Assembly: GCA_030693515.1 (NCBI GenBank)
Contig: JAUYAK010000076.1
Span: 1-64,000, forward strand
Length of the DNA stretch: 64,000 bases
Direction of reading: 5' to 3'
Source: Opitutaceae bacterium
GTDB taxonomy: Bacteria; Verrucomicrobiota; Verrucomicrobiia; Opitutales; Opitutaceae
In this document: one piece after another, positions 3,201 through 46,244 of the stretch
Position numbering within the stretch: position 1 is the stretch's first letter
How the letters are laid out: every line of letters starts with the position of its first letter
Notes under the pieces: generated by a model
What the model was told of the DNA's origin: nothing
Database searches by the model: none
The model's input: only the letters and a program-made list of their open reading frames with translations
Program-made: the position numbers and the translations under genes

Positions 3201-4277
3201 ATGACTCCCGCTCCCGACCTCCCCTCCCTCCCGCTCCGCGCCAAGATCGCCCAGCTGATCAACGTGGGCTTCCGCGGCCTTCGCCCCGCCGATTGCGCCC
3301 CGGTGCTGCGCGACGTGCACGAGCTCGGCGTCGGTGGTGTCATTCTTTTTGACCAGGAGATGGTCGATGGCTCGGCGGGCCCGCGGAACATCGAGTCGCC
3401 CGCGCAGGTGCGCGCGCTGCTCGCGTTTCTCCAATCGCACGCCCGCATCCCACTCCTCACCTCCATTGATCAGGAGGGCGGCCGCGTGAACCGGCTGAAG
3501 CCGATCTACGGTTTTCCCGAGAGCATTTCTCACGAGGAACTCGGCCGCCTCGATCAGCCCGCCGAGACCTACCGCCACGCCGCCGCCACGGCGCAGACCC
3601 TCGCCGGCCTCGGCCTCAACTGGAACCTCGCGCCCGTCGTGGACCTCGACGCGCATCCCGACAACCCGATCATCAAGGGCAAGCGCCGCAGCTTCGCCGC
3701 CGACCCTGAGATCGTCGCGCGCCACGCGGCGGAGTTCGTGCGGGCGCACCGCACGCACGGCGTGCTCACGTGTCTGAAACATTTCCCCGGCCACGGCAGC
3801 GCGACGGGCGACACCCACCTCGGCCTCGTCGATGTCACGCGCACGTGGCACGAGCGCGAGCTGGCGCCGTTTCAAAAACTGATCGCGGCCGGCCACTGCG
3901 ACGCGATCATGAGCGCGCATGTTTTCCACGCGCAGCTCGACCCCGAGCGCCCCGCGACGCTCTCCCACGCCGTCATCACCGGGATTCTGCGCGAGCGCCT
4001 CGGCTTCCGCGGCGTGATCACGAGTGACGACATGGAGATGAAAGCCATCGCGAGCCACTACGGCCTCGAGCAATCCCTGCCGCTCGCCATCGAGGCGGGC
4101 ATCGACGTGCTCTGCTTCGGCAACAACCTCAGCCACGATCCCGACATCGCGCCGCGCGCCATCGGGATTCTGGAGCGCGCCGTGCAGTCGGGTCGTATCC
4201 CCGAGTCGCGCATCGACGAATCGGTCGCGCGCGTGCTCGCGTTGAAACGGAAGTTTGGAAGTAGGGCGGGTCTTTGA
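3201..4277 (+). CDS. nagZ: Glycoside hydrolase family 3 beta-N-acetylglucosaminidase (NagZ type)
   Basis: A 358-residue, single-domain GH3 enzyme of NagZ size. It has the family signature KHFPGHG at 193-199 followed by the Asp-x-His dyad (D204, H206) typical of NagZ-type hexosaminidases, and the nucleophile motif SDDM at 275-278. In the family this removes GlcNAc from muropeptides. There is no signal peptide, so it is probably cytoplasmic. It is the first gene of a peptidoglycan-salvage cluster with an AmpG-like permease 62 bases downstream, then NamZ and an amidase. The last codons, encoding GSRAGL, and the TGA stop lie inside a palindromic repeat (4261-4329), so the original C-terminus has probably been replaced. 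No good Shine-Dalgarno is seen at the ATG. Confidence 0.93.
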   Translation: MTPAPDLPSLPLRAKIAQLINVGFRGLRPADCAPVLRDVHELGVGGVILFDQEMVDGSAGPRNIESPAQVRALLAFLQSHARIPLLTSIDQEGGRVNRLKPIYGFPESISHEELGRLDQPAETYRHAAATAQTLAGLGLNWNLAPVVDLDAHPDNPIIKGKRRSFAADPEIVARHAAEFVRAHRTHGVLTCLKHFPGHGSATGDTHLGLVDVTRTWHERELAPFQKLIAAGHCDAIMSAHVFHAQLDPERPATLSHAVITGILRERLGFRGVITSDDMEMKAIASHYGLEQSLPLAIEAGIDVLCFGNNLSHDPDIAPRAIGILERAVQSGRIPESRIDESVARVLALKRKFGSRAGL

Positions 4278-4329
4278 CCCGCCCTCGAAAACTCACCGCG
4301 TGCATGGGCGGGTCAAAGACCCTCCCTAC
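4261..4329. repeat. Double palindrome, GTAGGG...CCCTAC family
   Basis: Left half 4261-4284 and right half 4306-4329 are near-perfect reverse complements. Each half is also palindromic (GGGCGGGTC-TTT-GACCCGCCC). The repeat overlaps the 3' end of nagZ and supplies its TGA stop. No T-run follows, so it is not a simple terminator. Confidence 0.9.
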
Positions 4330-4339
4330 CCTACCTTTC

Positions 4340-6202
4340 ATGACCCCGCCTCCACATTCAACGCCCGCCAACCGCAGCGCGTGGTCCTGGATTCCGACGC
4401 TCTATTTCGGGCAGGGCATCCCGTATGTCGTGGTGATGACGATGTCCGTGATCCTCTACAAGCGGCTCGGGATCTCCAACACCGACATCGCGCTCTACAC
4501 GAGCTGGCTCAACCTGCCTTGGGTCATCAAGCCGCTGTGGAGCCCGATCGTCGAGCTGCTCGGCACCAAGCGCCAGTGGATCCTCGCGATGCAGCTGCTC
4601 ATCGGCGCGGCGCTCGGCTGCGTGGCGCTCACGATCCCGGGACCGGATTTTTTCAGAATCACGCTCGGGGTCTTCTGGCTGATGGCGTTTGCCTCGGCCA
4701 CGCACGACATCGCAGCCGACGGTTTCTACATGCTCGCGCTCCACAAGCACGACCAGGCGTGGTTCGTGGGCGTGCGCAGCACCTTCTACCGCCTCGCCAT
4801 GATCGCGGGGCAGGGCCTGCTCATCATGCTCGCAGGGTCGATCGAGACGCGCACCGGCCTGGCACCGCTCGAATTGAAAATTGCCGCGCAGCCCGGCGCT
4901 CCCGCCCTCTCGAACCTCGAGCGGTCGGCCGTGAACCTCGAGCGCGGCGGTCCGCTGCGGCTCGTCGCCGCGCCGGCGCAGCTCACGCTCCCGCCCGGGC
5001 CCGCGTCACCCGGCGAAGTCCGCGCTCTGGTGGCGCAAGCCCGGCAAGCGAACCAAGCCGCGGGCCTGACCCGCGCGCCCGATGCCGCGGCGCAGTCCGC
5101 CGCGGCCGGCGGTCCCTCCTGGTGGAGCCGCACGGTCGCGCAGCCGCTGGAGTCATTCCTGCGCGCCCGTTTCGGCACGGCGCCCGTGCAGCGGAGCGAT
5201 GCCGCGGGACGCGCGGGCGTTTTTTTCGTCGGGCTCACGGCGCGGCCCGAGCAGGACGTGGTGGTAAACCTCGCGCGCGATTCCGGCGACAAGGGCATGA
5301 AGCTGCTGGAGGGAGAACGCTTCACCTTCACCGCGGCAAATTGGGAGCAGCCCATGATCGTCGTCGTGCAGCTCGATCCGAAAAACACGGGCGCCAGCGA
5401 GGCGGTGTTTCTCGCCAGTTCGGGCAACATCCCGCTCGCGTGGTCGATCACGTTTTGGACGCTCGCCGGGCTCTTCGTGGTGTTCTGCCTCTACCATCGC
5501 TTCGCGTTGCCGAAGCCCACGGCCGACCTGGCAGGCGCGACGCGGCCGCGCGGCCCTCCGCTGGCGGAATTCTTCGGCGCGTTCGGATCTTTTTTCCGGA
5601 AGCCGATGGTCGCGCGCACCCTCGCGTTTCTGCTGCTCTACCGTTTCGCCGAGGCGCAGCTCGTGAAGATGGCGGCGCTCTTCCTGCTCGATGGCCGCGA
5701 GGCGGGCGGACTCGGGCTTTCGACGTCTGCCGTGGGCTTCGTCTATGGCACGGTCGGCATCGTGGCCCTTACAATCGGCGGCCTGCTCGGCGGCTTCTGC
5801 GCCGCGCGCCACGGCCTGAAGTTCTGGCTGCCAGTGATGGCCGTGGCGATCAACGTGCCGAACCTCGTCTATGTTTACCTCGCCTACGCGACGCCGGGCA
5901 GCTTCGTGGTCGTCAACGCCTGCGTCGCCGTCGAGCAGTTCGGCTACGGGTTCGGCTTCGCCGCCTACATGATCTTCATGCTCTACGTCGCGCAGGGCGA
6001 GCAGCAGACCGCGCACTATGCGATCTGCACGGGCTTCATGGCGCTGGGGATGATGATTCCCGGGATGTTCACCGGCTGGCTGCAGGAGATCATCGGCTAC
6101 CAACACTTCTTCGTCTGGGTGATCATCGCGACGATTCCGGGCTTCATCGTGACGGCGTTGATCCGGCCGGATCCGGAGTTCGGAAAAAAACCCGCGGAGT
6201 GA
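4340..6202 (+). CDS. AmpG-like major facilitator permease with large soluble insertion
   Basis: 620 residues. I chose the ATG at 4340 because an earlier in-frame ATG (4274) lies inside the repeat and encodes an unlikely leader. Hydrophobic segments at about 20-165 and 365-610 fit a 12-14 helix MFS protein. The motif ATHDIAADGF (120-129) resembles the AmpG/PAT 'QDI..DA' signature. AmpG imports anhydro-muropeptides, and the NagZ, NamZ and amidase genes around it support that substrate. Oddly, about 200 hydrophilic residues (about 166-365) interrupt the membrane part. Their second half (VVVNLARDSGDKG...FTFTAANW) looks like an extracellular beta-sandwich repeat of the kind with an 'FTxxNW' strand. 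It meets namZ convergently with 18 bases between the stops. Confidence 0.85.
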   Translation: MTPPPHSTPANRSAWSWIPTLYFGQGIPYVVVMTMSVILYKRLGISNTDIALYTSWLNLPWVIKPLWSPIVELLGTKRQWILAMQLLIGAALGCVALTIPGPDFFRITLGVFWLMAFASATHDIAADGFYMLALHKHDQAWFVGVRSTFYRLAMIAGQGLLIMLAGSIETRTGLAPLELKIAAQPGAPALSNLERSAVNLERGGPLRLVAAPAQLTLPPGPASPGEVRALVAQARQANQAAGLTRAPDAAAQSAAAGGPSWWSRTVAQPLESFLRARFGTAPVQRSDAAGRAGVFFVGLTARPEQDVVVNLARDSGDKGMKLLEGERFTFTAANWEQPMIVVVQLDPKNTGASEAVFLASSGNIPLAWSITFWTLAGLFVVFCLYHRFALPKPTADLAGATRPRGPPLAEFFGAFGSFFRKPMVARTLAFLLLYRFAEAQLVKMAALFLLDGREAGGLGLSTSAVGFVYGTVGIVALTIGGLLGGFCAARHGLKFWLPVMAVAINVPNLVYVYLAYATPGSFVVVNACVAVEQFGYGFGFAAYMIFMLYVAQGEQQTAHYAICTGFMALGMMIPGMFTGWLQEIIGYQHFFVWVIIATIPGFIVTALIRPDPEFGKKPAE

Positions 6203-6220
6203 TCCGCCCGGCTCGGCCGC

Positions 6221-7450
6221 TCAATAGAGAAGAAACGGTTTCCGATCCTCGCGGAATTTTTCCTCCGCGGCGCGCCACGCGGCGACGATCTCGACGGCAG
6301 GCTTGGCTTCCTGCAGGGCGAGACGCACGGCGTCGGTGCCGTTGACCTTGTCGAAAAGCTCAAACTTTTTTCCCGCCTGCACCGCCTCGGCAAACACATC
6401 GCGGCCCGTGACCGCGCGGATCGCGTCGAGCGCGTGGAAGTTGATCGCGGTCAGCGGCGCGCGGGCGGGATCGGTGAAGTGGAGCTGCACGCCGCCGACG
6501 ATCTCGCCGGCCGCGGTGGCGTAGTAGGGCTTGTAGGTGAGCGGACGAAAGACGACGCCCGACAGGCCGCGGGCATTGAGATTCGCGGCGAGGGCGTGCG
6601 GATCGAGCTTCGGCAGGCCGATGACCTGGAAGGGCAGGGTGTAGCCGACGCCCACGCTCACGTTGCTCAGTTCGCCGATGATGCCGGTCGCCACCTGAAA
6701 GAGCGGCGAGTCGCCGTGCGGGATATGCGGTGACGCCGGCACCCAGGGCAGGCCGGTGTCGGCCCATACCATCTCGCGCCGCCAGCCGCGCAGCGGCACG
6801 ACGGTGAGTTTGCATGGCTGCTTGATCCACCCGCGCGCGTTGATCATGCGGGCGAGCTCGCCGCAGGTGAGGCCATAGACGTAGGGCACGTCCCACTGGC
6901 TGACGAACGAGCGGAACTTCTCCTCCACGAGCGCGCCCTCGATGCGCTCGCCGCCGAGCGGATTCGGCCGGTCGAGCACGATGAACTCGATCCCCGCCGC
7001 ACCGCACGCCTCCATCGCAAGACCCATCGTGCTGACAAACGTGTAGGAGCGGCTGCCCGTATCCTGCAGATCATAGACAAGGGCATCGAGGCCTTCGAGC
7101 ATGCGCGGCGTCGGCTTGCGCGTGGCGCCGTAGAGCGAATGCACCGGCAGGCCCGTGCGCGCATCGGTGCGGCTCTCGATCTTGTCGCCGGCGGGCACGT
7201 CGCCGTAGATGCCGTGCTCGGGGCCAAAGAGCGCGACGAGCTGCACGCCGGGCGCGCGGCGAAGGACATCGATGGTCGTCTCCAGCTTCCGATTCACGCC
7301 CGAGGGGTTAGTGATGAGACCGACACGCTTGCCGGCCAGCACCTTGAAGCCCTCGGCGGCGAGCACCTCGTTGCCGAGTTGCACCGACGCCGCCGGAGCG
7401 GACACCGCCAGAATCACGAAAGCGATTAGAGTGAGCAGGCGAAGGGTCAT
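6221..7450 (-). CDS. namZ: DUF1343 exo-beta-N-acetylmuramidase (NamZ-like, GH171)
   Basis: 409 residues from the ATG at 7450, which precedes a clear signal peptide (MTLRLLTLIAFVILAVSAPA). The frame stays open further upstream, but that part is antisense to the amidase. Conserved family features are KRVGLITNPSG (41-51), GPEHGIYGD (76-84) and the Asp/Arg-rich stretch LDRPNPLGG. In Bacillus the family removes MurNAc from the non-reducing ends of peptidoglycan fragments, acting in series with NagZ and an amidase. That trio is reproduced here. It is probably periplasmic. It diverges from the amidase gene with 87 bases between the starts, which must hold both promoters. Confidence 0.92.
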   Translation of the reverse strand: MTLRLLTLIAFVILAVSAPAASVQLGNEVLAAEGFKVLAGKRVGLITNPSGVNRKLETTIDVLRRAPGVQLVALFGPEHGIYGDVPAGDKIESRTDARTGLPVHSLYGATRKPTPRMLEGLDALVYDLQDTGSRSYTFVSTMGLAMEACGAAGIEFIVLDRPNPLGGERIEGALVEEKFRSFVSQWDVPYVYGLTCGELARMINARGWIKQPCKLTVVPLRGWRREMVWADTGLPWVPASPHIPHGDSPLFQVATGIIGELSNVSVGVGYTLPFQVIGLPKLDPHALAANLNARGLSGVVFRPLTYKPYYATAAGEIVGGVQLHFTDPARAPLTAINFHALDAIRAVTGRDVFAEAVQAGKKFELFDKVNGTDAVRLALQEAKPAVEIVAAWRAAEEKFREDRKPFLLY

Positions 7451-7537
7451 CGGGGCACGCTGGCAGACGCCGGTCCGTGCGCAAACGCGATTGAGCCGCG
7501 CGCCGCAATCCGCTCCGCTCCCGCCCTGCGCCCCGCC

Positions 7538-8635
7538 ATGAGAAAATACCCCCGCTGGTTTCGCCCACTCGTCCTCTCGCTCGCCGCCGCCGTGTTCGTC
7601 GCGGCCGCAGGCTGCCACCTCGCGCGGCCGCGGACTTTTCTCCCGCGCAAGGGCGACGAGATCATCGTGGCCGGGCAGCTGTTTCACACCGGCACGCGCG
7701 TCGTCACCTGGATGGACCCGCAAGGCTACGACGGCTACCGCGTCGAGCGCCGCTTCAGCCCCGAGGCCGAGAGCAGCTGGGAAAAATCCAAAGACGCCGT
7801 GAAGGATCTCCGCAACCCCGCGCGCTACAACCTCCGCCGCGATGGCCTCGCGCCCGAGGAGATCGAGCGCGTGCGCGGCGGCGGCTGGGACCTCCCGCTG
7901 CTCCAACGCACGGTCGATCAGTTTGTGCTGCACTACGACGTCGCGGGCATCAGCAAGCAGTGTTTCAAGATTCTCCACGATCTGCGCGGGCTCAGCGTGC
8001 ACTTCATGTTGGATATCGACGGCACGATCTACCAGACGCTCGATCTCAAGGAACGCGCCTTTCACGCGACGACCTCCAACAGCCGCTCCATCGGCATCGA
8101 GATCGCCAACATGGGCGCCTATCCGCCGGGCGCGCACAAGGCCCTCGACGAATGGTATCCGCGCGACGCACAGGGGCCTTTCATCAAGGTGCCCGAGCGC
8201 TTCGACGATCCGATGATCTACACCAAGGATTTCACCGGCCGGCCCGCGCGCCCCGAACTCATCCGCGGCAACGTGCAGGGCACGGAGCTCCTGCAATACG
8301 ACCTCACGCCGCAGCAATACGCCGCGCTCACCAAACTCACCGCCGCGCTGTGCAAAGTGTTTCCGCAGATCGCGTGCGACTACCCGCGCGACGCCGAGGG
8401 CAAGCTCATCACCAAGAAACTCCCCGACGAGGAGCTGAAAAAATTCCAAGGCGTGCTCGGCCACTACCACGTGCAGGCCAACAAAACCGACCCGGGCCCC
8501 GCCCTCGACTGGGACCGGGTGATCGGCGGCGCGCGGAGCCTGCTCGGTTTGCCCGAGGTGAAGCGCGGCGCGCCGGCTCCCGTGCTCGTGCCGTGGGCCG
8601 CGCCCAAGCCGGCGGCGACAACGGAAACGCGGTAG
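7538..8635 (+). CDS. N-acetylmuramoyl-L-alanine amidase, lipoprotein (amidase_2/AmpD fold)
   Basis: 365 residues. A lipoprotein signal with lipobox AAAGC puts the lipidated Cys at 26. The amidase_2 domain spans about 125-325: zinc ligand H132 in VLHYD, catalytic Glu188 in SIGIEIAN, and GHYHVQANKTDPG (308-320) giving the second His and the Asp (H309, D318), equivalent to His34/His154/Asp164 of AmpD. It cleaves the MurNAc-peptide amide bond. Lipidation places it on the periplasmic face of a membrane, unlike cytoplasmic AmpD, so it probably trims muropeptides before or independently of import. The TAG stop (8633-8635) falls in the GTAGGGC end of a repeat. Confidence 0.92.
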   Translation: MRKYPRWFRPLVLSLAAAVFVAAAGCHLARPRTFLPRKGDEIIVAGQLFHTGTRVVTWMDPQGYDGYRVERRFSPEAESSWEKSKDAVKDLRNPARYNLRRDGLAPEEIERVRGGGWDLPLLQRTVDQFVLHYDVAGISKQCFKILHDLRGLSVHFMLDIDGTIYQTLDLKERAFHATTSNSRSIGIEIANMGAYPPGAHKALDEWYPRDAQGPFIKVPERFDDPMIYTKDFTGRPARPELIRGNVQGTELLQYDLTPQQYAALTKLTAALCKVFPQIACDYPRDAEGKLITKKLPDEELKKFQGVLGHYHVQANKTDPGPALDWDRVIGGARSLLGLPEVKRGAPAPVLVPWAAPKPAATTETR

Positions 8636-8703
8636 GGCGCGGACTCCGTTCCGCGCCGATGGGTGTCACGCTGAAAAGGCGGCGAGCGGAGTCGCCGCCC
8701 TAC
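8632..8703. repeat. Double palindrome, GTAGGGC family
   Basis: Left half starts GTAGGGCGCGGACTCC (8632) and the right half ends GAGTCGCCGCCCTAC (8703). The right half read in reverse is a related but not identical word (GTAGGGCGGCGACTCC). The repeat provides the amidase stop codon. Confidence 0.88.
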
Positions 8704-8712
8704 CAGCTGGAC

Positions 8713-8745
8713 AAAGAAAAAAGGCCCGCGGGTGGCGGGCCTTCG
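8713..8745 (-). terminator. Rho-independent terminator of gnd
   Basis: On the minus strand: AAGGCCCGCC-ACCC-GCGGGCCTT followed by a T-rich tract (TTTTTTCTTT). It starts about 36 bases after the gnd stop. Confidence 0.85.
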
Positions 8746-8780
8746 AGTTGCTCGGGCGCGGTCAATCCGCGCTAGCGGGC

Positions 8781-10292: not shown

Positions 10293-10393
10293 GGCGAGGA
10301 GGAAGGCGGCGAGGACTAGCCAAATGGGAGGGAAAACCAAACCCTTTCTCGGCGGGCGTCATAAAAACCGCGGGCGGCAGGCCGGTCGCACCG

Positions 10394-10642
10394 TCATTTC
10401 CGGGCCTTGCCGGGGAGGAATTCCGCGACCCAGGCGACGAAAGGCGTGGCCCATTCGGGCTCGTTGCGCTCGTAGATCCAGTTGAAGCCCACAAACGTGA
10501 GCGCGATGAGCAGCAGGAAGCCGAGGATATAGCCGCTGAACTTGGCGAGCGTGCGGATGAGCAGGACGACAGCGATCAGCGCCAGCAGGCCGACGCCGAC
10601 CTTGATCCACAGGTCGAGGGGCACCTCTTTCAGGCGATCCAT
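10394..10642 (-). CDS. Small two-helix membrane protein of unknown function
   Basis: 82 residues from the ATG at 10642, chosen because GGAG lies five bases upstream; an ATG 39 bases earlier has no ribosome site. Two hydrophobic segments (about 12-28 and 34-52) are joined by RTLAKFSG, followed by a short amphipathic tail. I do not recognise a family. It lies upstream of gnd in the same direction, with about 100 bases between, and may share transcription with it. Confidence 0.6.
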   Translation of the reverse strand: MDRLKEVPLDLWIKVGVGLLALIAVVLLIRTLAKFSGYILGFLLLIALTFVGFNWIYERNEPEWATPFVAWVAEFLPGKARK

Positions 10643-10738
10643 GACTCCGGTTTCGGCAGTGGCGGCGGCGAGGACGTGCATGGGGTGGACGATGGCGCGG
10701 CGGCCGGTGGGTTTCGAGTCCGAATCCGCGGCAGCCGC

Positions 10739-11191: not shown

Positions 11192-11205
11192 GAGTGCGCG
11201 TCCGG

Positions 11206-14200
11206 TTATTTCTTCGCCGCTTCGTAAGGCGTCTCGTCCTCGGCGACGTAGATATGCCCGGCATCAAGGTCGGCTTGGGAGTAGCCTGCAGGCGTCTTGC
11301 CCTTGGCCGGAGTCGAGTCGTCGAGCGCAGGCAATTTGGCCACGAGCTTCATCGTCTCGACGCTCACAGTCACGACCTGGCCCACGAGGCGGATGATGTA
11401 GTCTTCGTCGTCCGCGCGGTTGGGGTCGCTGGTGATTTCGCCGGCCGCGTCGCGCTCGACACGGTATTGGTCGATCACCCAGTCGAGCGCGCTGCGGTTG
11501 CCGAGTCGGTAACTGTGCGCGGCGGCGGGGATGCCTTCGAGCGTAAGCCAGTCGTTGTAGGCGAGCGCAGTCTTGTCCTTGGACAACTTCATCCGCTCGA
11601 CCCGCCAGTCGGGTTTCACGCCCTTCGCCTCCACGCGCTTCAGCTTGAATTCCTTTTGCGATTCGTAGCCCGTGTGGAATGCGGCCAGCTTTTCCCCGGC
11701 CTGGGCGAACGCGGCGAAATCGGGTGCGAACGGGATGCGCGGCAGCTCGCGCCGGAGGTTGGCGGCGTATTTTTGGCGGTAAGCCGGATGGTGCAGGACG
11801 GCGTAAACGTAATGGAAGATGTCGCGCTTGGTGAGCTTCGCGCCGGCGCCGGGGTATCGCGCCTTAAACTGCGCCAAGGCCCAGTCGGTGACGTTGTCGC
11901 GCCGGTGGCCGCCATCCGTGTCGTAAGTGTAGAGGGGGAAGCACTGAGCCTTCTCAAACGCAAAATCCAAACTCGTTATCGCCTGGGCGGTGAATACTCC
12001 AAACGCCTGCCTGTTGCCCGGACCAGGAACGATTATGGTCTGATTCACTGCGGTCGGTGTCGGAAAAAACGAAGGCTGAAGATAGCGACGATGAACAAGG
12101 AGATCATCAAAGTAGACGTGCCTTCGTGTGAAGGGACGAAATGTGGCATCGCGGATCAGCACCTTTGAAAACTCTAGCTCTCGGCCATCAACCAACGCGT
12201 TCTTTAGCCGGTCGGTCCATTTAACGAACTTGGGGTCGGGCGAAACAAAATCGTCAGCTCCAATCGATTTCTCGCGTCGGCGGCGGAAGCGACCCACCTC
12301 AGAGTTGTAGTTCTCGATCAGACGGGCGACCTTAAGCGCCAAGCCGTCGGGATTAAAGTCGAAAACCCATTCATCACGGTTCGTCGCAATACCGAGAGAA
12401 TATGTGCGGAAGATTGCTTGAGCATCGAGGCTGTCATTTGCTTTCGTCTCCTTGCTGCCCAACGGAGGAAAACCGTCGAAATCATTGTCGAGCCCCTCGC
12501 GCAGCCAAGTGTGCTTGGCGTCGGGCTTGAGTTTCTTCCATTTCACGCCGTCGATGGATTTTTTTTCCTCCAGCCACGCCCATTTCTCTTCCTTGCTCCA
12601 ATCCTCACCGACCTCTGCGTAGCGAATCACAGCGTTGCGGCGCTTCAGTTCCTTCTGTTTGTGCCGGACAAAAAGCGCGATGCTTACGCCGACTTGAATT
12701 CCGAAAACATTGTGGGTCGTGCCGGAGAGCTTGGGATTTTTCCGCACGTTGCCGTTGAGATCCACGATGTAGATCGCATCGAAGTCCTCGGCTAGGTGCT
12801 GGCGCACGCCATCGGCATTGATCGCCTCCAGATAGCCGTTGTTCGTGACGAGCGCGACGATACCCTCGTCGCCAATCCGATCGCTGGCCCACGCGAGAGC
12901 TTTGATGTAGGGATCGCTGAGTTTGTTCAGCAGCGTCGCTCTAGAGTCGGCAGCATAAGTGTTCTTTATCCGCTGGTCGAGTCGCGGGTATTTTCGATTC
13001 TTGTTATTGTCGTTCTCGTCCTGCTGGTTCGCGTTGTAGGGCGGGTTGCCGAGGATGACGCGGATGGGTGCTTTCTTCTGCGCATTCACTCGCTCGGTGT
13101 TCTTCGCCAGATCGAACGCCATCTCCATCGTCTCGCCATGACCGGGCTCGGCGAGTTCGAAGGTGTCGACGAGGCAGAGGCCGGGAAATGACTCGTAGGT
13201 GCCGGTGCGCTCGAAGAACTCGTGCTCCACGTTCTGCGCGGCGATGTAGTAGGGCAGGAGCATGATCTCGTTGGCCCAGAGTTCGCCGAGGAATTTTTTC
13301 TTCAGCGCCGCGGCCGGCAGCTCGCGCATGAGGTGGACGAGGAAGTTGCCCGTGCCGGTGAACGGATCGAGAAAGTGGACGCCCTCGGCGCCGAGGTCTT
13401 TGCCGAATTCTTTTTTCAGCAGCTCGCGGATGCTCGCGATCATGAAGCGCACGATGGAGGGCGGTGTGTAAACGATGCCCATCGTGTCGGCGACCTTCAC
13501 CGCGAAACCCTGGAAGAACTTTTCGTAAACGGTGTTCAGGAACTTCTGCTTCTCCGAAAAATCCTCGATGACGGTCGCGGCGCTCTCGATGGCGACGTAG
13601 AAGCGGTCGAGTTTCTTCAGGAAGTCGGCGCGCGAAAAATGAGCGGATGCGAGAGCGTCGATCACCTTTTCGATTTCGACGGCGACGACGTTGCGACGGG
13701 TGAAATCGGGGTTGTTGAAGACGGAGCCGAAGAGGCGCGCGGTGAGCAGATGCTGGATGAGCATCTCCTCGATGGCGGAGTCGGCGAGCGAGGGGTTGAT
13801 GGCGGCGCGGCAGAGCGCGGCGAAGTCGTTGAAGGCGGCGGTGAATTTTTTGTTGGGCAGCGTGCCCTTCGTGCCGCGGGCGCGCTGGATGACCTCGCTC
13901 AGGCTTTTGCCGAGCTCCGCCACGCGCTCGCGAAACTCTTCCGTGGCGCGCTCCCAGTCGGCGATCACGGGCTCGGTGTAGGCGAAGAAACGGGCGAGGA
14001 TGTCGCAGAGGTGCTGCGGGCAGGTGTCGATGTAGCAGTCGAGGACGACCTTGCCGTCCTGCACGAGGAGGGCGCGGCGGGGTTGCCAGAAGAGGGTGTT
14101 TTTCGCGGGGTAGCCGAGCTTGAGCTTGGCGCGCATCTCGGCCGCGAGGTCGTCGGCGTCGTCCTTGGCCTCGATCACGCCGTGCGGGATGCGGTAGGAG

Positions 14201-14427
14201 TCGAGGAGAACGGCGTCGAGGCGCAGCGGAGCGGCGTTTTTCCGGGAGACGGAGTATTCGCGGACGAGCGTCCACTTAAGCGGGCCGGCACAGTGTTCGA
14301 TAAGCCGGTGCCACGCCTCGCGGACGGCAGTCTCATGGGTCGCGCCAACGTTGGCCAGCTGGGTCAGGGCGAGGGTGTAGGCCTTGACAGGCGCGGACGT
14401 AGGCTTGAGGGCGATAGGATGCGCCAT
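11206..14427 (-). CDS. Single-polypeptide restriction-modification enzyme (type ISP/IIG-like)
   Basis: 1073 residues. An N-terminal nuclease-like motif has D71, then IEAK with E86 and K88 (PD-(D/E)xK pattern). A helical linker runs to about 320. The adenine methyltransferase core has motif I DPFTGTGNF (354-362) and motif IV NPPY (461-464). The rest, about 480-1073, resembles the specificity domain of type ISP enzymes. I see no helicase/translocase domain between nuclease and methylase, so the architecture is closer to type IIG. It should both methylate and cut DNA at an unknown site. It sits inside the molybdenum cofactor operon between moaD and moaE. The stretch about 11950-13000 is clearly AT-richer than its neighbours, suggesting transfer. 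Confidence 0.88.
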   Translation of the reverse strand: MAHPIALKPTSAPVKAYTLALTQLANVGATHETAVREAWHRLIEHCAGPLKWTLVREYSVSRKNAAPLRLDAVLLDSYRIPHGVIEAKDDADDLAAEMRAKLKLGYPAKNTLFWQPRRALLVQDGKVVLDCYIDTCPQHLCDILARFFAYTEPVIADWERATEEFRERVAELGKSLSEVIQRARGTKGTLPNKKFTAAFNDFAALCRAAINPSLADSAIEEMLIQHLLTARLFGSVFNNPDFTRRNVVAVEIEKVIDALASAHFSRADFLKKLDRFYVAIESAATVIEDFSEKQKFLNTVYEKFFQGFAVKVADTMGIVYTPPSIVRFMIASIRELLKKEFGKDLGAEGVHFLDPFTGTGNFLVHLMRELPAAALKKKFLGELWANEIMLLPYYIAAQNVEHEFFERTGTYESFPGLCLVDTFELAEPGHGETMEMAFDLAKNTERVNAQKKAPIRVILGNPPYNANQQDENDNNKNRKYPRLDQRIKNTYAADSRATLLNKLSDPYIKALAWASDRIGDEGIVALVTNNGYLEAINADGVRQHLAEDFDAIYIVDLNGNVRKNPKLSGTTHNVFGIQVGVSIALFVRHKQKELKRRNAVIRYAEVGEDWSKEEKWAWLEEKKSIDGVKWKKLKPDAKHTWLREGLDNDFDGFPPLGSKETKANDSLDAQAIFRTYSLGIATNRDEWVFDFNPDGLALKVARLIENYNSEVGRFRRRREKSIGADDFVSPDPKFVKWTDRLKNALVDGRELEFSKVLIRDATFRPFTRRHVYFDDLLVHRRYLQPSFFPTPTAVNQTIIVPGPGNRQAFGVFTAQAITSLDFAFEKAQCFPLYTYDTDGGHRRDNVTDWALAQFKARYPGAGAKLTKRDIFHYVYAVLHHPAYRQKYAANLRRELPRIPFAPDFAAFAQAGEKLAAFHTGYESQKEFKLKRVEAKGVKPDWRVERMKLSKDKTALAYNDWLTLEGIPAAAHSYRLGNRSALDWVIDQYRVERDAAGEITSDPNRADDEDYIIRLVGQVVTVSVETMKLVAKLPALDDSTPAKGKTPAGYSQADLDAGHIYVAEDETPYEAAKK

Positions 14428-14738: not shown

Positions 14739-14772
14739 CGGGAGCGCGTGAGATGATTCGCAGGTTGGTTCA

Positions 14773-14797
14773 GGGCGGGTCACAGACCGCGCCCTAC
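14773..14797 (-). repeat. Single palindromic half, GTAGGGC family
   Basis: On the minus strand it reads GTAGGGCGCGGTCTGTGACC..., a single hairpin half. It lies between moaC and moaD and supplies the TAG stop of moaC. Confidence 0.78.
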
Positions 14798-17705: not shown

Positions 17706-17731
17706 CGGCGGGCAGGGCCGCCCGCCGCTAC
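17706..17731 (-). repeat. Single palindromic half, GTAGCGG variant
   Basis: On the minus strand GTAGCGGCGGGC-GGCC-CTGCCCGCCG, a hairpin just downstream of the convergent membrane-protein gene and of moaA. A second weak hairpin (CCGCTGCTTCCGAAGCGG) lies at about 17680. No T-run follows either. Confidence 0.6.
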
Positions 17732-27994: not shown

Positions 27995-28063
27995 GTAGCG
28001 CGAGGCTTCAGCCCGCGCCGAACGTGATGCCGACTTCCTGCGCGGGCTGAAGCCTCGCGCTGC
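27995..28063. repeat. Double palindrome, GTAGCGCGAGG type
   Basis: GTAGCGCGAGGCTTCAGCCC (from 27995) is mirrored by GGGCTGAAGCCTCGCGCTGC (to 28063), with a loop of about 20 bases. The arms match over more than 20 bases. It shares the GTAGC end of the family. Confidence 0.85.
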
Positions 28064-29683: not shown

Positions 29684-29770
29684 GGTGGGGCCGGCTCTCC
29701 GTAGCCGGCCTGGGATTTCGTGGGCGAATCGCCCTGCAACTCAGGCCGCTTGCGGAGAAGCGGCCCCACC
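29684..29770. repeat. Double palindrome, GGTGGGGCCG type
   Basis: Left core 29684-29710 and right core 29744-29770 face each other and each forms a hairpin. The loop (GGGCGAATCGCCCTGCAAC) closely matches the loop of the copy at 46128-46213 (GGCGCATCGCCCTACAAC), showing the two copies are homologous along their length. Confidence 0.85.
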
Positions 29771-32255: not shown

Positions 32256-32327
32256 GGTAGGGCGGCGACTCTGTTCGCCGCCGGATTGGGCACACGACAT
32301 GGCGCGGAGCGGAGTCCGCGCCCTACC
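32256..32327. repeat. Double palindrome, GTAGGGC family
   Basis: Left core GGTAGGGCGGCGACTC... (32256-32282) and right core ending GAGTCCGCGCCCTACC (32301-32327). It carries the same two words as the copy at 8632, in exchanged order. It supplies the TAG stop of the DUF4202 gene. Confidence 0.88.
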
Positions 32328-36315: not shown

Positions 36316-36317
36316 GG

Positions 36318-36438
36318 CCAATCGCCTTGGAAATCTAGACTTGGCCTGCGCCCGTAGCCGCGAGCGTGAGCGAGTGGACGGACCACCACTCGCTCACGCT
36401 CGCGGCTACCAATACGTCCAAATCTCCAAGGACGTTGG
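36318..36438. repeat. Long composite palindrome with outer boxes
   Basis: A perfect 24-base inverted repeat (GTAGCCGCGAGCGTGAGC..., 36354-36377 and 36386-36409, 8-base loop) is flanked by outward boxes CCAATCGCCTTGGAAATCT (36318) and, inverted, CCAACGTCCTTGGAGATTT (to 36438). It begins two bases after the receptor stop. Confidence 0.88.
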
Positions 36439-36453
36439 CATGAGGCCCTCTTG

Positions 36454-36525
36454 GTAGGGCTCGACCTTGGTCGATGCCTCCGTCGTGGGCGTCCAGCCAA
36501 GGCGCGGACCAAGGTCCGGCCCTAC
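36454..36525. repeat. Double palindrome, GTAGGGC family
   Basis: Left half GTAGGGCTCGACCTTGGTCG (from 36454) and right half ending GGTCCGGCCCTAC (36525). Each half forms its own hairpin around CCTTGG/CCAAGG. It lies in the same 298-base non-coding gap as the previous repeat; the rest of the gap has only a small GAGTG...CACTC hairpin near 36590. Confidence 0.82.
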
Positions 36526-37264: not shown

Positions 37265-37411
37265 GGCGGAGGCGGGTGCGCCCCAAGCCAGCCCGCTTCT
37301 GCGCCCGCCTGCAAGCCGGCGGCCTTGGAAATCTTCCTGCCGAAAAGAGTCCGGAGTCTTGGGGCAGGAAAATTTGGTGGGCCGGAAGATTTTAGAAAAA
37401 GGAAGCAGGCC

Positions 37412-37433
37412 GTGCCGGTGGCGCCTCCGCTAC
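37412..37433 (-). repeat. Single palindromic half, GGTAGCGG variant
   Basis: On the minus strand GGTAGCGGAGGCGCCACCGG forms a hairpin. It is preceded by a degenerate CCTTGGAAATCT box near 37322. It lies between the nucleoside hydrolase and DUF2959 genes. Confidence 0.5.
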
Positions 37434-37448
37434 CAGCCAGCTGCGCTC

Positions 37449-38498: not shown

Positions 38499-38614
38499 GG
38501 GCGGAAAGGGCGGCGGCCGAGGTCCGCAGCCGAGCGGACTTTGCGGCGGCATGCAATCCGACTCCTCGCTCGACGCGGCCCGCGCCGTCCGCAGCCTAGC
38601 GCCGCATCCCGCCC

Positions 38615-38896
38615 ATGAATCTCTCCCCCGAGGAAATGACCTTTGCCCGCGATCTCGTGAAGGCCTCGCGCCAGCGCATCCACCACGTCGCGTGGGTGGA
38701 TCGCGACGGCACGCATCGGATGACGGCGCTCAACGCCGCGGAGGTGGGGCAGCTCAACCGCCTCTCGGGCCGGCTCGGCGTTTCCAATGGCGAGCTGCTG
38801 CGCCAGGTCGCCTACATTCCGAACCCCAAACCCGCGCCCGCCCAAGCCGTGCCTCCGCATCCGGCGCCGGATGTGGCGCCGGATGCGGCCGGCTAG
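38615..38896 (+). CDS. Small protein of unknown function
   Basis: 93 residues. The first 65 or so look folded and mixed alpha/beta (EEMTFARDLVKASRQRIHHV, NRLSGRLGVSNGELLRQVAY), with a Pro/Ala tail. No family recognised. Its stop shares a CTAG with the stop of the convergent helicase gene, so the two overlap by four bases. Confidence 0.6.
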   Translation: MNLSPEEMTFARDLVKASRQRIHHVAWVDRDGTHRMTALNAAEVGQLNRLSGRLGVSNGELLRQVAYIPNPKPAPAQAVPPHPAPDVAPDAAG

Positions 38897-41800: not shown

Positions 41801-42513
41801 AGCGGCCGGAAGACCTCCGGGATCGGGCGGCCCGCCAGCTCGTAGTCGTGGGCGAGAAACTGCCAGAGCGCCCACGGGTCGGCGGGCGCGCTCGCGCGAT
41901 CCCACCAGCCGGCGAAGGCCGGGGCGTAGAGCGGCGCCCCCGGCGTCGGCGTGTGCTCGAAACCGTGCCGCAGGATCGTGCCGGGGTAGAGCGTGCCGTG
42001 CGACTGGGCGAATTCGGCGTAGAGCGCGGCGAGGTTGCCGAGCTGGTTCAGCTCCGCGGCCGTGAGCGCGCGGCCGAGCTTCTTGGCGAGGATCGGACTC
42101 CACTTGGCCGTGAAGGTGTTTTTCTCCGGCGGAGGAGGGGGCTCGTCCGGCTCCGGCGTGGACGTCGCCGCTACGGCCACCGCGAGGGGCGCGGGCGTCT
42201 CGACCTCCGCGATCCACGCGAGGCCGGCGGCGTAGGCGTGCTTGCAGTCGTCCTTGCGCGGGCACGAGCAGCGCGAGCTCCAGCGGCTGCGCGTGAGAAA
42301 CAGCGTCACGCCGTAGAGCTCGGAGCCGAAGACGCGCGCCTCGACGTAGTGGTCCGCGCCGGCCCAGACGCGGCGCACCTGCTTGCTCTCGAAATACGCT
42401 GCACCGCGCTCGCGCGCGTGCGGCGGCAGGGCCGCCAGCCACGCGCGCAGCGCCGCCAGCGCCTCGGGCGTCTGGACACTGCGCACGATGGGCGAGCGGA
42501 ATTTGGCGGCCAC
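38893..42513 (-). CDS. SWIM/SNF2-family helicase
   Basis: 1206 residues from a GTG at 42513; the open frame further upstream overlaps glyS antisense-free sequence but is Arg-rich and unlikely. A SWIM zinc finger (RCSCPRKDDCKH, about 80-92) is followed by a long, poorly conserved middle. The SNF2 ATPase has DDMGLGKT (about 775), a DEGQ box (about 872) and LTGTPIENRLTDLW; the second helicase domain has LVFSQFVEMLEII, LLSLKAAGFGLNLTAA and DRTHRIGQ near the end. It is a double-stranded DNA translocase acting on nucleoproteins, perhaps RNA polymerase (RapA-like). It is 41 bases downstream of glyS on the same strand. Confidence 0.92.
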   Translation of the reverse strand: MAAKFRSPIVRSVQTPEALAALRAWLAALPPHARERGAAYFESKQVRRVWAGADHYVEARVFGSELYGVTLFLTRSRWSSRCSCPRKDDCKHAYAAGLAWIAEVETPAPLAVAVAATSTPEPDEPPPPPEKNTFTAKWSPILAKKLGRALTAAELNQLGNLAALYAEFAQSHGTLYPGTILRHGFEHTPTPGAPLYAPAFAGWWDRASAPADPWALWQFLAHDYELAGRPIPEVFRPLTDTAPIPAAIEHNLVQKELAAWQRALADTGETTAPTPSHPALADVAGLRARVRPEGGLAIEVRSITGGRWRSPPQRWFATLAGARPADFEHLAPAEAALGLAIAAECGPAFQAPTLRHALPMDATANLFRTRAARGAIVLPDGQPLVVEPLALALEASVSATARDRLELRLVTPDGRSAARATLVTLRPDPLYYFENRVWRGPPPTPDAPLPTAALGDSRLMSRLRAAGLRLPAELESNVRRMALRPLLKCWLAAPPDDPDTLQFRAQLLARADDLPIEQQWMPGGWQWTPRGAPPLRRASEPLLEFDLAAAQGASGRLAAFDLAWRETEAAWGRDTGPDFPDAFIAWHATLPPGLKVDVAPGLAHLLDAPVQAHVEIAAAPAEAAGRDWFNLTVKLRVSDTKLSAEEIALLMKARGKWVSLPRHGWRRIELERGEHPAATAAALDRLGLDADEVLADGKPRTHRLHAMQLATQADFFAQQDAQVAAALRERAAAFAAHPPPPLPAGLRATLRPYQIEGFHFLAHHAALGLGGILADDMGLGKTVQTLAWFLHLAETRKAEAGPLRLLVVCPKSVTHGWLAETERFAPALKASAFDPLRLGPAAAGSMAQLLVANYTQLRLNAAWFQAQPWDAVVLDEGQFIKNPGSQVATVARSLPSQHRLILTGTPIENRLTDLWSLFAFAQPGLLGPQAAFRRHYTDINPETHARLHRRVRHFLLRRTKAQAAPELPSRTEDDLIVELEGEQRVLYDAELKRARSQLLGVDSPHALAAVRFNVLSSLLRLRQICCHPALVDPAHRDLPSAKLEALLERLEELRDEGHQVLVFSQFVEMLEIIRRRLVAENIGHLMITGATENRAELIAQFQRDETKTVFLLSLKAAGFGLNLTAASYVILYDPWWNPAAEAQAIDRTHRIGQTEAVVAYRLLAEGTVEEKIRAMQRDKAALAAAVVQEESLANILDLDSLRQILA

Positions 42514-42554
42514 GGTGGACGGGAGGGGGCGCGCCGGGAGCGGCGCGCGCGGCC

Positions 42555-44084
42555 TCAGTAAATCTGCTCCTCGAGCAGCGCGAAGAGCTCGGCCTCGGTG
42601 ATGCGTTTTTGCGCCATCGAATCGCGCTCGCGGAGCGTGAACGTGTCGCCCGGCTTCTCGATCGTGTCGAAGTCGATCGTCACGCACCAGGGCGTGCCGA
42701 TCTCGTCCTGGCGGCGGTAGCGTTTGCCGATGTTGCCACCGTCGTCGTAGAACACCGCGTAGCGGCGCTGGAGTTTCTTGTAGAGATCGTGGGCGCGCTT
42801 CGTCAGCGCCTCCTTGTTTTTCAACAGCGGGAGCACGGCGACCTTCACCGGCGCGATGCGCGGCGAGAGGCGGAGCACGGTGCGTTTCTCGACGTTGCCC
42901 TTCTCATCCTTCACGTCCTCCTCCGCGTAGCCGGCGCAGAGCACGGCGAGCAAAATGCGATCGACACCCACGGCGGGCTCGATCACGTGGGGGACGAATT
43001 TCTTCTTCGAGGTCTCGTCGAAGACTTCCTGCGGCTTGCCGGAGGCGTTGCCGTGCTGCGTGAGGTCGTAACTGCCGCGCGCGGCGATGCCCCACAGCTC
43101 CTGCACGCCGAAGGGATACTGAAACATGATGTCCACGGTGCCCTTGGAGTAGAACGCGAGCTTCTCCTTCGGGTGCGCGTAGAGCGAGAGGTGCGACTCG
43201 GGCAGGCCCACCGAGATGAGCCACTGGCGGCACCACTCGATCCAGTCCTTGTGGCATTTGTCCCAGTCGGCGTCCTCGTGGATGAAGTATTCCATCTCCA
43301 TCTGCTCGAATTCGCGCGAGCGGAAGATGAAGTTGCGCGGCGTGATCTCGTTGCGAAACGACTTGCCGATTTGCGCGATGCCGAAGGGCAGCTTCACGCG
43401 GCCGGTATCCCAAACATTTTTGAAATCGACGAACATGCCCTGCGCCGTCTCAGGGCGGAGGTAGGCGACCGACGAGCCGTCGGTCATCGCGCCGACGTTC
43501 GTCTGAAACATCATGTTGAAGGCGCGGGCCTCGGTGAGGCTGCCGGGCTCGCCGGTGGCGGGCGACGGGATGAGAGAAATTTCCTCGGGTTTGGCTTCGG
43601 TGAAATCTTTCGGTGTGACGGGCGCGAGAGTGCCGACGATGGCTTTCTTACGCTTGAAGGTTTCCGCGGCGGCCTGGAGATCGGCGGCGGTTTTCTCCGA
43701 CTCAAGCGCGCTCACGCAGCCGACGGTCTTGCCGTCCACGACGACCGGGGAGAAAAACAACTGATCCGCCCGAAACCGCTGCTTGCTCACCTTGCAGTCC
43801 ACGAGCGGGTCGCTGAAGCCGGCGACGTGGCCCGAGGCTTCCCAGACCTTCGGGTGCATGATTATGGAGGTCTCGATGCCGACGATGTCGTCGCGGCGGC
43901 GCACCATGTCGGCCCACCAGCAGTCGCGGATGTTCTTCTTCAGCTCGGAGCCGAGGGGACCGTAGTCGAAGAAGCCGTTGAAGCCGCCGTAGATTTCCGA
44001 GGACTGGAAAATGAAGCCCCGGCGCTTCGCGAGCGCGACGATGGCATCCATGGTGACAGCGGGTGTGGTCGATTCTGCGGACAT
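42555..44084 (-). CDS. glyS: Glycine-tRNA ligase (homodimeric, class II)
   Basis: 509 residues, the single-chain (eukaryote/archaea-like) form rather than the alpha2beta2 bacterial form. [20 protein letters not shown] is the class-defining N-terminal region; motif 2 is in [20 protein letters not shown] and motif 3 in the [16 protein letters not shown] segment. The C-terminal anticodon-binding domain begins near [12 protein letters not shown]. It charges tRNA-Gly. It diverges from htrA, with 152 bases between. The helicase gene follows on the same strand. Confidence 0.96.
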
Positions 44085-44183
44085 AAGAAGTGAGAGCTAG
44101 CCCGCGCGGCGCGGCGGGGTCAATTCCGCGCTTGGCCGCCCGCGGTCCTTTTCACCGCCCGGCATTTGCGGATTGCCGCGGAC

Positions 44184-44208
44184 GGAACCTGTTTAGCAAC
44201 GTTCAGTC
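44184..44208 (+). promoter_or_regulatory. Possible extracytoplasmic-function sigma promoter of htrA
   Basis: GGAACC at 44184-44189 and GTC at 44206-44208 are separated by 16 bases, the spacing of ECF sigma promoters (GGAAC-N16/17-GTC), and end 28 bases before the htrA ATG. The match is by pattern only. Confidence 0.4.
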
Positions 44209-44236
44209 TCACGCGTCCCGCCGCTTCCCTCCGCCC

Positions 44237-45859
44237 ATGAACTCCCGCACTTCCGCCTCCGCTTTTCTTTTCGCCTGCGTCTTTGCCGCCACGGTGGCCG
44301 TCACCGCCGGCCTCACGGCTTGGGCCGCGGACGCCAAGCCGGGCAAGGCCAACAAGGCGCGCAAGGCGCCCGCCGCCGACTCCACCGCCACCGCGGCCGA
44401 CGGCACACGCGCGTCCCTCCAGATCGCCGTCGATGCCCGGCCGATCGACCGCGACGCCGCCGAGCGCGTGAGCTACGCGCGTATCGTCCAGCGCACTGCC
44501 GCGAGTGTCGTCTACGTCTATTCCACCAAGACCGTGCGCGCGCCGGACATGTCGTCCTTCTTCAACGACCCGATGTTCCGCCGCTTCTTCAACCTCCCGG
44601 AAGACGAGCTCGATCCCGACGCTGCGCCCGCCCCGCGCAACCGCGGCAACAACAACCGCAAAAACGCGCCCCCCCGCAACAACCCCGGCAACCGCGCCCC
44701 CGATCGCCAGCAGCAGGGCCTCGGCTCCGGCGTCGTGATCACCGCCGATGGCTACATCCTCACTAACAACCACGTGATCGAAGGCGCCGACGATGTGCGC
44801 GTCTCCGTCGGCGATTCCAACAAACGCTACGAGGCCAAGGTCGTCGGCCGCGATCCCGGCTCCGATCTCGCGGTGCTGAAGATCGAGGCGACGGGACTTT
44901 CGCCCGTGACCTTCGGTGACAGCGATCAGGCGCTCGTGGGCGACGTCGTGCTCGCCATCGGCAATCCCTTCGGGGTGGGCCAGTCCGTGAGCCGCGGCAT
45001 CGTGAGCGCGCTCAGCCGCGGCATGGGCATGGGCGTCTTCGAGGACTTCATCCAGACCGACGCCGCGATCAACCCCGGCAACTCCGGCGGCGCCCTCCTC
45101 GACAGCGACGGCCGCCTCATCGGCATCAACTCCGCCATCCTCAGCCGCAGCGGCGGCTTCGCCGGCGTGGGCTTCGCGATTCCCTCCAACCTCGTCCGCT
45201 CCGTCGCCGAGCAGCTCGCCCGCACGGGCCGCGTCGAGCGCGGCCTGCTCGGCGTGCGCCCGCAGCCGCTCGACGAGGCGCTCACCGCGCAGTTCGGCAC
45301 CGAGAAGGGCGCCTTGCTCAGCGAAGTCACCGAGGACAGCCCCGCCGACAAAGCCGGCCTCAAGCCCGGCGACGTGATCACCAAGGTCAACGCCACCGAG
45401 ATCCGCGACCCGCGCCACCTCACGCTCACCGTGAGCAAGCACGCGCCGGGCACCGAGGTCACCATCGAGTATCTGCGCGAGGGGAAAACCAAAACCGCCA
45501 GCGTGACGCTCGCACGGCGCGACGATGCCGCGGTCGCCCGCGACGACGCTCCGCTGCCGAAGAAGGACGAAGGCATCCTCAACGGCGTGGGCGTGGGCCC
45601 GATCACGCCCGAACTGCGCTCTCAGCTCGGCCTGCCCGCCCGCATGGGCGGCGTAGTCGTGACGGCCATCGACCCCGACACCCCGGCGGCGAAGCAGGGC
45701 CTGCGCGAAGGCGACGTGATCCTCGAGATCGACCGCAAGCCGCTGACCGATGTCGATCAGGCCGTGAAGCTGAGCGAGGAAATCAAGGGCCCGAAGTTCC
45801 TCCTGCGCATCTGGCGCAACGGCAGCCCCACCTTCCTCGCGATCGACGAGTCGAAGTAA
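44237..45859 (+). CDS. HtrA/DegP-type periplasmic serine protease
   Basis: 540 residues from the ATG at 44237 with a signal peptide (about 1-31). Trypsin-like domain with triad H179 (TNNHV), D210 (GSDLAVL) and S283 (NPGNSGGAL). Two PDZ domains follow (about 360-455 and 465-535), the DegP arrangement. Between strand 2 and the His lies an unusual Asn/Arg/Pro-rich loop (RNRGNNNRKNAPPRNN, about 134-149), probably a long disordered regulatory loop. It degrades or refolds damaged envelope proteins. A possible envelope-stress promoter precedes it. It is followed by 387 non-coding bases filled with palindromic repeats. Confidence 0.95.
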   Translation: MNSRTSASAFLFACVFAATVAVTAGLTAWAADAKPGKANKARKAPAADSTATAADGTRASLQIAVDARPIDRDAAERVSYARIVQRTAASVVYVYSTKTVRAPDMSSFFNDPMFRRFFNLPEDELDPDAAPAPRNRGNNNRKNAPPRNNPGNRAPDRQQQGLGSGVVITADGYILTNNHVIEGADDVRVSVGDSNKRYEAKVVGRDPGSDLAVLKIEATGLSPVTFGDSDQALVGDVVLAIGNPFGVGQSVSRGIVSALSRGMGMGVFEDFIQTDAAINPGNSGGALLDSDGRLIGINSAILSRSGGFAGVGFAIPSNLVRSVAEQLARTGRVERGLLGVRPQPLDEALTAQFGTEKGALLSEVTEDSPADKAGLKPGDVITKVNATEIRDPRHLTLTVSKHAPGTEVTIEYLREGKTKTASVTLARRDDAAVARDDAPLPKKDEGILNGVGVGPITPELRSQLGLPARMGGVVVTAIDPDTPAAKQGLREGDVILEIDRKPLTDVDQAVKLSEEIKGPKFLLRIWRNGSPTFLAIDESK

Positions 45860-45872
45860 GCGGCGATGAGCC

Positions 45873-45918
45873 CGTTGGGGCCCCGCGTGCGAGTCACCCG
45901 CGGGGTCTCGACCAACGG
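45873..45918. repeat. Nested inverted repeat downstream of htrA
   Basis: Outer arms CCGTTGG...CCAACGG enclose inner arms CCCCGCG (45881-45887) and CGCGGGG (45899-45905). No T-run follows. The outer right arm overlaps the first box of the next composite repeat. Confidence 0.5.
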
Positions 45919-46061
45919 CCTTTGAAGTTTGGCTTCAGAAGATTGTCGGTGGGCGGGCACGTCCCTGTGCCCGCATGGGGCGGAGCCGCAAAGTGACCAA
46001 TTGCGGGCCCAGGGACGGGCCCGCCCACCCGGCCGAAATGCTAGAATTCAAGGGCGATTGG
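45912..46061. repeat. Long composite palindrome with outer boxes
   Basis: The left box CCAACGGCCTTTGAAGTTTG starts at 45912; the left core GGTGGGCGGGCACGTCCC spans 45948-45974; the right core ends GGGCCCGCCCACC at 46029; an inverted right box ends GGGCGATTGG at 46061. It is the same layout as the copy at 36318. Confidence 0.85.
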
Positions 46062-46089
46062 TCTAGCTGGCAGGCGAGCTGGACTCATA

Positions 46090-46244
46090 CCAACGTCCCT
46101 TGAAGTGTGGACTTCCGAACGATTGGCGGTGGGGCCGCTTCTCCGCAAGCGGCCTGGGTTCCAGCCGGCGCATCGCCCTACAACCCAGGCCGGTTCGGAG
46201 AACCGGCCCCACCTCGGAATAGTCTGCTTGTCACGGGACGTGGG
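46090..46244. repeat. Long composite palindrome with outer boxes
   Basis: The left box CCAACGTCCCTTGAAGTGTG starts at 46090; cores GGTGGGGCCGCTTCTCC (46128-46154) and ...GAACCGGCCCCACC (46188-46213) follow, then a degenerate inverted box up to the receptor stop. With the previous copy it fills the htrA-receptor gap. Confidence 0.85.

Follow-up and report, generated by a model that had tools for sequence, protein, structure and literature searches.

What are the self-complementary repeats that lie between genes in the window, i.e., the first 64 kb of a 166-kb contig (C21, GenBank JAUYAK010000076.1) of Opitutaceae bacterium (assembly GCA_030693515.1, 6.65 Mb in 130 contigs), and how can they keep a common end of the GTAG or GTGG type while their core words change from copy to copy? 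A first-pass annotation had listed twelve such places and invoked either gene conversion between arms or a spread of variant units like that of repetitive extragenic palindromic (REP) sequences. The sites are probably GTAG super-family REPs, present as dimers or single units, several families of which have been captured in miniature inverted-repeat transposable elements (MITEs) of the IS630 type, with the outer repeats (the shell, each end of which is here called a half-shell) and the core copied together. The REP dimers belong to an already known class.

REP Units, Copy Number, and Families

All twelve places were read, and the repeats are genuine, since both the tag enrichment and the genome counts exceed chance. 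The units are 23–26 nt long including the tag, and carry GTAG or GTGG at one end. Among 475 perfect hairpins (stem of at least 8, loop of at most 8, both strands counted) in 526 kb, 32 are preceded by GTAG (1.2 expected from 4-mer frequency) and 16 by GTGG (2.4 expected). Genome-wide word counts, controlled by the reversed pattern, gave 147 matches versus 0 for family B, 37 versus 0 for family D, and 61 versus 7 for family A, some of the 61 being B-like. In 280 kb of stretches picked by contig number alone, 24 units were found, or about 86 per Mb; most of the remaining stretches came from contigs already known to bear matches, and the density there is biased upward. The genome carries hundreds of such units. 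A scan of 806 kb with 14 unit words, allowing up to 4 mismatches, revealed 107 units, 82 of them in 41 tails-outward dimers and 25 not so paired, several of the latter showing a degenerate second arm in context. No Rfam family matched the window at gathering thresholds, and no target motif was found just outside the tags, the strongest column reaching 0.27 bits.

Instead of the single family first proposed, eight are present in the window: A (8632, 32256), B (4261, 14773), C (17706), D (29684, 46129), E (45949), G (27995), H (36354), and I (36454). Two facing units or one long inverted repeat, as had been described for most copies, occur at nine places (4261, 8632, 27995, 29684, 32256, 36354, 36454, 45949, and 46129), while 14773 and 17706 are single units and family membership was not confirmed for 37412, whose only two further matches in 806 kb have 6 mismatches and 4 of 5 pairs.

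The reported preservation of pairing holds within each half and only partly between halves, because the arms of some families differ. All 8 pairs are formed in 34 of the 38 arms of 19 A-type dimers, and re-dealing the 3' halves among these dimers lowers the mean pairing from 0.99 to 0.84. The H, I, and G words pair better across the dimer than as single units. Predicted folds give one long hairpin in five of six sequences, 32257–32326 folding as two. Dimers were read in 30 of the 61 A, 30 of the 37 D, and 30 of the 147 B matches; 15 of the 17 distinct family A dimers have A1 opposite A2, and in the remaining two the arms are likewise unlike. The pair of words seen in exchanged order at 8632 and 32256 is the same dimer on opposite strands: because a dimer is an inverted repeat, reading it on the other strand swaps the order of its arms, and recombination is ruled out as the cause.

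The sites are listed below with their state in two relatives of the genus, G018 and G001.

4261–4329, no strand: REP dimer of family B, GTAGGGCGGGTCTTTGACCCGCC opposite its like; at the same place in G018 and G001.
8632–8703, plus strand: REP heterodimer of family A, arm A1 then A2; half-shell not found alongside (L012).
14772–14797, minus strand: single REP unit, B-like; in place in G018 and G001.
17706–17731, minus strand: single REP unit of family C; the transposase gene on C120 is flanked by an almost identical word; missing from G018.
27995–28063, no strand: REP dimer of family G, from the unit-word scan.
29685–29769, no strand: REP dimer of family D without outer shell; the G018 gap holds an unrelated GTAG dimer.
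32257–32326, minus strand: REP heterodimer of family A, in inverse orientation to the element at 8632; kept in G018, with a different REP word in G001.
36317–36439, no strand: IS630-type MITE with facing half-shells of 27.8 and 26.7 bits; core, the family H long inverted repeat at 36354–36409.
36454–36525, no strand: REP dimer of family I, GTAGGGCTCGACCTTGGTCGATGCC opposite GTAGGGCCGGACCTTGGTCCGCGCC, from the unit-word scan.
37410–37433, minus strand: GTAG-led word from the unit-word scan, membership in a repeat family unconfirmed.
45911–46062, no strand: IS630-type MITE (30.4 and 31.0 bits); core, the family E REP dimer at 45949–46028; missing here in G018.
46089–46245, no strand: IS630-type MITE (37.9 and 16.6 bits); core, the family D REP heterodimer at 46129–46212; a G018 copy at the same place.

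IS630-Type Shells around REP Cores

Outer inverted repeats of about 30–40 nt, which the first-pass annotation had missed, enclose the copies at 36318, 45912, and 46090. This outer repeat is common to the flanks of D, E, and H dimers and matches in sequence the two termini of a complete IS630-family element of the genome (C17:14711–15849), which encodes a transposase of 358 amino acids (NCBIfam IS630, 157.6 bits against a cut-off of 100). A generic end pattern, derived from the outer-repeat ends matching this element, has 50 matches in the genome and 0 in the reversed control. Half-shells were scored with a weight matrix built from such ends; it gave 23 matches of at least 16 bits in 806 kb versus 1 for the reversed matrix, a comparison that is partly circular. 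Half-shell matches flank 15 of the 21 IS630 transposase loci examined in other genomes (31 were found), on both sides in 10, and close relatives of the transposase occur mostly in metagenome-assembled genomes of Opitutaceae or Opitutae. In 76 of 97 half-shell contexts, including those of relatives and the ends of insertion sequences, ACC is preceded by T, as a TA target would give.

One of the 27 short two-ended elements listed for this genome (L017 1272–1460, an overlapping mis-pairing) was excluded. Of the remaining 26, 14 have a core read as D, 3 an A core, and 2 an H core; E and an E-like remnant occupy one element each, GTCATTGCGAGG-type palindromes occupy 3, and the last 2 are one-off cases. 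At least six kinds of core thus sit in complete shells here. When the lists were compared, 24 of the 26 matched the end pattern at one end or both. A strict tag-and-hairpin test of the 27 elements found two tags in 14, one tag in 5, and none in 8; H cores fall among the untagged because the H inverted repeat pairs across the dimer.

The palindromes of the GTCATTGCGAGG...CAATCCAG kind, which may be a widespread repeat of the CGTC kind, are found as MITE cores in L203, L017 (1272–1397), L072 (19412–19538), and L251–L255. At C21:64222 (L210), 222 bases past the end of the window, an end of the IS630 type accompanies the beginning of a transposase-like frame, which soon runs into other DNA. Contigs C48, C72, C91, C95, C97, and others end about 110–140 bases inside IS630 copies; the assembly seems to break at this element.

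Whether shell and core were copied together can be approached through the spacer between the two arms. Half-shells accompany five of the six family A dimers with a common spacer and none of the 12 others (best score 7.4 bits; p = 0.0007), or five of seven versus none of 11 when one looser spacer is included (p = 0.0025), for spacer groups drawn by eye. In family D, 5 of 15 dimers are shelled, with two similar spacer types, and none of the 19 family B dimers has a half-shell (best 6.7 bits). Family A thus favours the copying of shell and core as one piece, and families D and B are neutral in this respect.

Tyrosine Transposases

The genome contains seven Y1_Tnp matches, none of them in the window. 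One REP word stands on both sides of each of two REP-type tyrosine transposase genes, word C on C120 and word F on C70; together with the many near-identical copies and the tags, this upholds the REP-like spread suggested earlier. A third Y1_Tnp gene lies on C42, 106 bp upstream of a D dimer. Its candidacy as the REP-associated tyrosine transposase (RAYT) of family D is doubtful, as this dimer lies between half-shells of 15.2 and 22.8 bits. Candidates for a RAYT elsewhere in the genome are seen for C and F, whose words flank one gene each. Within about 1 kb of the other four matches, none of the listed words occurs as a GTAG or GTGG unit; these four include one IS200-type gene (115 bits) and one match inside an open frame of 1,120 amino acids. 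For five RAYT-like proteins, the best NCBIfam model was REP_Tyr_transpos (46.9, 72.0, 61.6, 73.9, and 21.1 bits), and one of them has a distant match to the solved TnpArep structure 4er8 (E = 0.0029).

In sister species, three further GTAG hairpin words occur, one per locus, in 5 of the 28 retrieved loci (L089, L092, L106, L109, and L112), at distances of 0.2 to 1.5 kb from a transposase match and, in L092 and L109, on both sides of it. Another hairpin class, built on GGCGTCCCGCC or GGCGTCTCGCC, occurs near tyrosine-transposase matches in L042 (6597–7131) and L044 (5830–5889). Hairpins by an IS200-type gene (CCGGAGCTTGCTCCGG), at L038 6282 and 6785 and at L044 6648 and 7333, have the centre AGCTTGCT in common with REP family F.

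Placement Relative to Genes

For site placement, 616 genes were called with a codon-usage script, and 7 of 61 sites were set aside as lying at stretch edges. Of the 54 placed sites, 49 are intergenic and 5 lie within called genes. Convergent gaps account for 14% of intergenic bases and hold 22 sites, and divergent gaps account for 17% and hold 1; of the 26 sites in codirectional gaps, 23 are closer to the 3' end of the upstream gene. REP sites are placed near gene 3' ends.

The TAG of the tag is the exact stop codon of the adjacent called gene in 8 of 73 GTAG-tagged units (in L043, L045, L056, L057, L059, L069, and L072, and at 32326 in the window) versus 78 of 3914 GTAG words overall. Between the repeats, the minus strand of the window encodes at 11206–14427 a type ISP restriction-modification enzyme of 1,073 amino acids (Pfam PF18135, 318 bits).

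Comparison with Sister Species

A scan of 27 genomes of the genus with the end pattern showed that four stand out, namely the present genome (50 matches), G001 (48), G018 (41), and G035 (24), the reversed controls giving 0 to 11. Cores were read in 20 retrieved pieces, and included D and GTCATTGCGAGG (G018), GTAGGCCCG words (G018 and G001), GTAGCCGAGG (G001), CCGCGGAT (G014), and ACCACGGATTT (G006). Two tags were present in 7, one tag in 2, and no tag in 10 of the 19 two-ended elements of the relatives.

With G018, which is 88–93% identical in long matches, the window shares four of its twelve sites in place (4261, 14773, 32256, and 46090). Sites 17706 and 45912 are missing with their neighbouring genes kept, the gap of 29684 holds a different GTAG dimer, and 8632, 27995, 36318, 36454, and 37412 fall outside the comparison, as their gaps are too divergent. 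G001 has 4261 and 14773 in place, no such dimer at 8632, and other REP words in the gaps at 32256 and 46246. The two arms at 4261 have unlike loops in both relatives, and the D2 arm at 46090 differs from that of G018 by a paired change (GGTTC..GAACC versus GGCTC..GAGCC). Single intergenic gaps, namely those at 29685–29769, 32257–32326, and 46246 (L271, L277, L282), hold REP dimers of different families depending on the species.

Proposed Mechanism and Alternatives

In the mechanism that we propose, RAYT-type HUH transposases would act on single-stranded DNA and copy the free dimers. Dimers from several REP families would also have been taken into the centre of IS630-type MITEs, after which the IS630 transposase would have copied each shell with its core into TA sites. 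Capture followed by joint copying would make the core words look exchangeable in a constant frame. The combined data suggest that two mobile-DNA systems were combined to spread the repeats, with REP dimers that seem to travel alone and also as MITE cargo. The spread of REPs in the known way appears well founded in strong counts and in the literature, and the cargo part rests on the shared ends, the T before the end, and the spacer link of family A.

A number of observations weigh against this proposal. Movement is inferred, no transposition having been observed. The spacer groups of family A were drawn after the data had been seen, and the half-shell matrix scores ends that also trained it. 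In family D the spacer link is weak, since the spacers of three dimers that lack a shell (L124, L132, and L142) resemble those of shelled ones. Shell-less family B dimers often have recognisably related spacers as well, so a shared spacer needs no shell. The E-core MITE at 45911 shows no clean TA duplication in comparison with G018. No MITE with an empty middle (core-less, 45–90 bp) was found in the DNA examined. Predicted folds reach z-scores below −3 in 18 of 26 own cores, 14 of 19 cores of relatives, and 8 of 60 control gaps, so not all cores are set apart from controls. On the transposase side, the position of the C42 dimer between half-shells means that the link between D and this gene may be incidental, the seven loci read show no transposase gene next to families A, B, E, G, H, or I, and none of the five RAYT-like proteins reaches the REP_Tyr_transpos cut-off of 80.

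The order could also have been the opposite, with the MITEs present first and RAYT-type enzymes putting REP dimers singly into their hairpin tips, so that the MITE was not the spreader. We regard this as somewhat doubtful. It would fit the shell-less D dimers with shell-like spacers, the occurrence of core E in one shell type here and another in G001 (with a single half visible there), and the REP dimers reported from within long palindromes of A. variabilis and H. neapolitanus, where no such palindrome was found to lack REPs (PMC3733652). However, D-core MITEs at many sites agree with one another in shell as well as core, and within family A the shells are tied to one spacer type, both of which joint copying predicts. 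A D word born in the MITE, with free D dimers escaping from it and with a merely secondary likeness of the word to REPs, is unlikely: although 5 of 15 D dimers are shelled, some free ones have shell-like spacers, and D-core MITEs are also present in G018, family D matches the shell-less families B, C, and G in tag position, unit length, and dimer geometry.

Two further explanations dispense with mobility. Ordinary terminators or 3' hairpins, inherited vertically and diverging in word by compensatory drift, could account for the paired change at 46090 and for the four sites in place in G018, two of which are also in place in G001. The first-pass annotation had named two findings that would refute its reading, a genome with no more than these few copies and, as a sign of such inheritance, identical words at the same places in distant relatives; the genome holds far more copies than a few, and the sites kept in a relative of about 90% DNA identity indicate that vertical descent explains part of the pattern. 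The recurrence of near-identical words at dozens of places, and in one case at over one hundred, the absence of 17706 and 45912 from G018, and the different REP words in the gaps of 29684 (G018) and of 32256 and 46246 (G001) speak against terminators, and copy number and absences together refute vertical inheritance as the full explanation, which we consider highly improbable. Gene conversion keeping the two arms of a dimer alike would agree with most family B dimers, which are alike in both loops, but is hardly credible given the consistently unlike arms of family A (A1 with A2 in 15 of 17, the others also unlike) and the different loops at 4261 in G018 and G001. Of the two processes first invoked, it is thus spread, and not conversion, that the data favour.

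Relation to Known Elements

GTAG-tagged REPs have been described in Opitutus terrae as GTAG-17, -19, and -20 (Di Nocera 2013, PMC3733652). The present units resemble the REPs treated there in the GTAG tag (GTGG in most GTAG-20), in stems of 6–9 bp, in forming homo- and heterodimers, in their location at gene 3' ends, in the association of families C and F with RAYT-like genes, and in coming from the same phylum, a likeness of class features and not of compared consensus words. As in the account of REPINs (REP doublets forming hairpins), where the dimer is taken as the spreading unit (Bertels and Rainey 2011, PMC3116915), two inverted REPs and a spacer form a hairpin; in contrast to what is described there, certain families here have arms that consistently differ, and a MITE encloses some of the dimers.

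IS630-derived MITEs include the Correia and RUP elements (PMC2817692), with which, as outlined in that source, the shelled elements share short length, lack of coding capacity, IS630-family ends, and the T before the end; the middle here differs in being a dimer from one of several unrelated REP families. The palindromes of A. variabilis and H. neapolitanus likewise have a REP dimer central in an outer inverted repeat. In the section describing them, this outer palindrome is given no insertion-sequence assignment (PMC3733652), whereas the outer repeat found here corresponds to the ends of IS630 and surrounds cores of several kinds. Neither IS630 nor mariner is mentioned in the main text of PMC3733652, and neither IS630 nor RAYT in that of the MITE review PMC10969869. 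Literature searches pairing REP or MITE with Opitut returned nothing, by which we claim no wider absence from print; among results pairing RAYT with IS630, only PMC2817692 looked relevant, and its passages on the subject treat IS630 MITEs and REPs separately.

Implications

How REPs multiply is still mostly inferred. The occurrence of shelled and shell-less dimers of one family in one genome makes two routes of spread directly comparable. Beyond the window, we tentatively entertain the possibility that the IS630-type MITEs of this genus are carriers that repeatedly take up unrelated palindromic repeats, and so may offer REPs a second route, via a DDE transposase and without RAYT; this would agree with the variety of cores here, which is matched in sister species by others such as the GTAGCCGAGG, GTAGGCCCGG, and CCGCGGAT words. 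If true, such a carrier role would explain the outer palindromes around REP dimers elsewhere (Di Nocera 2013).

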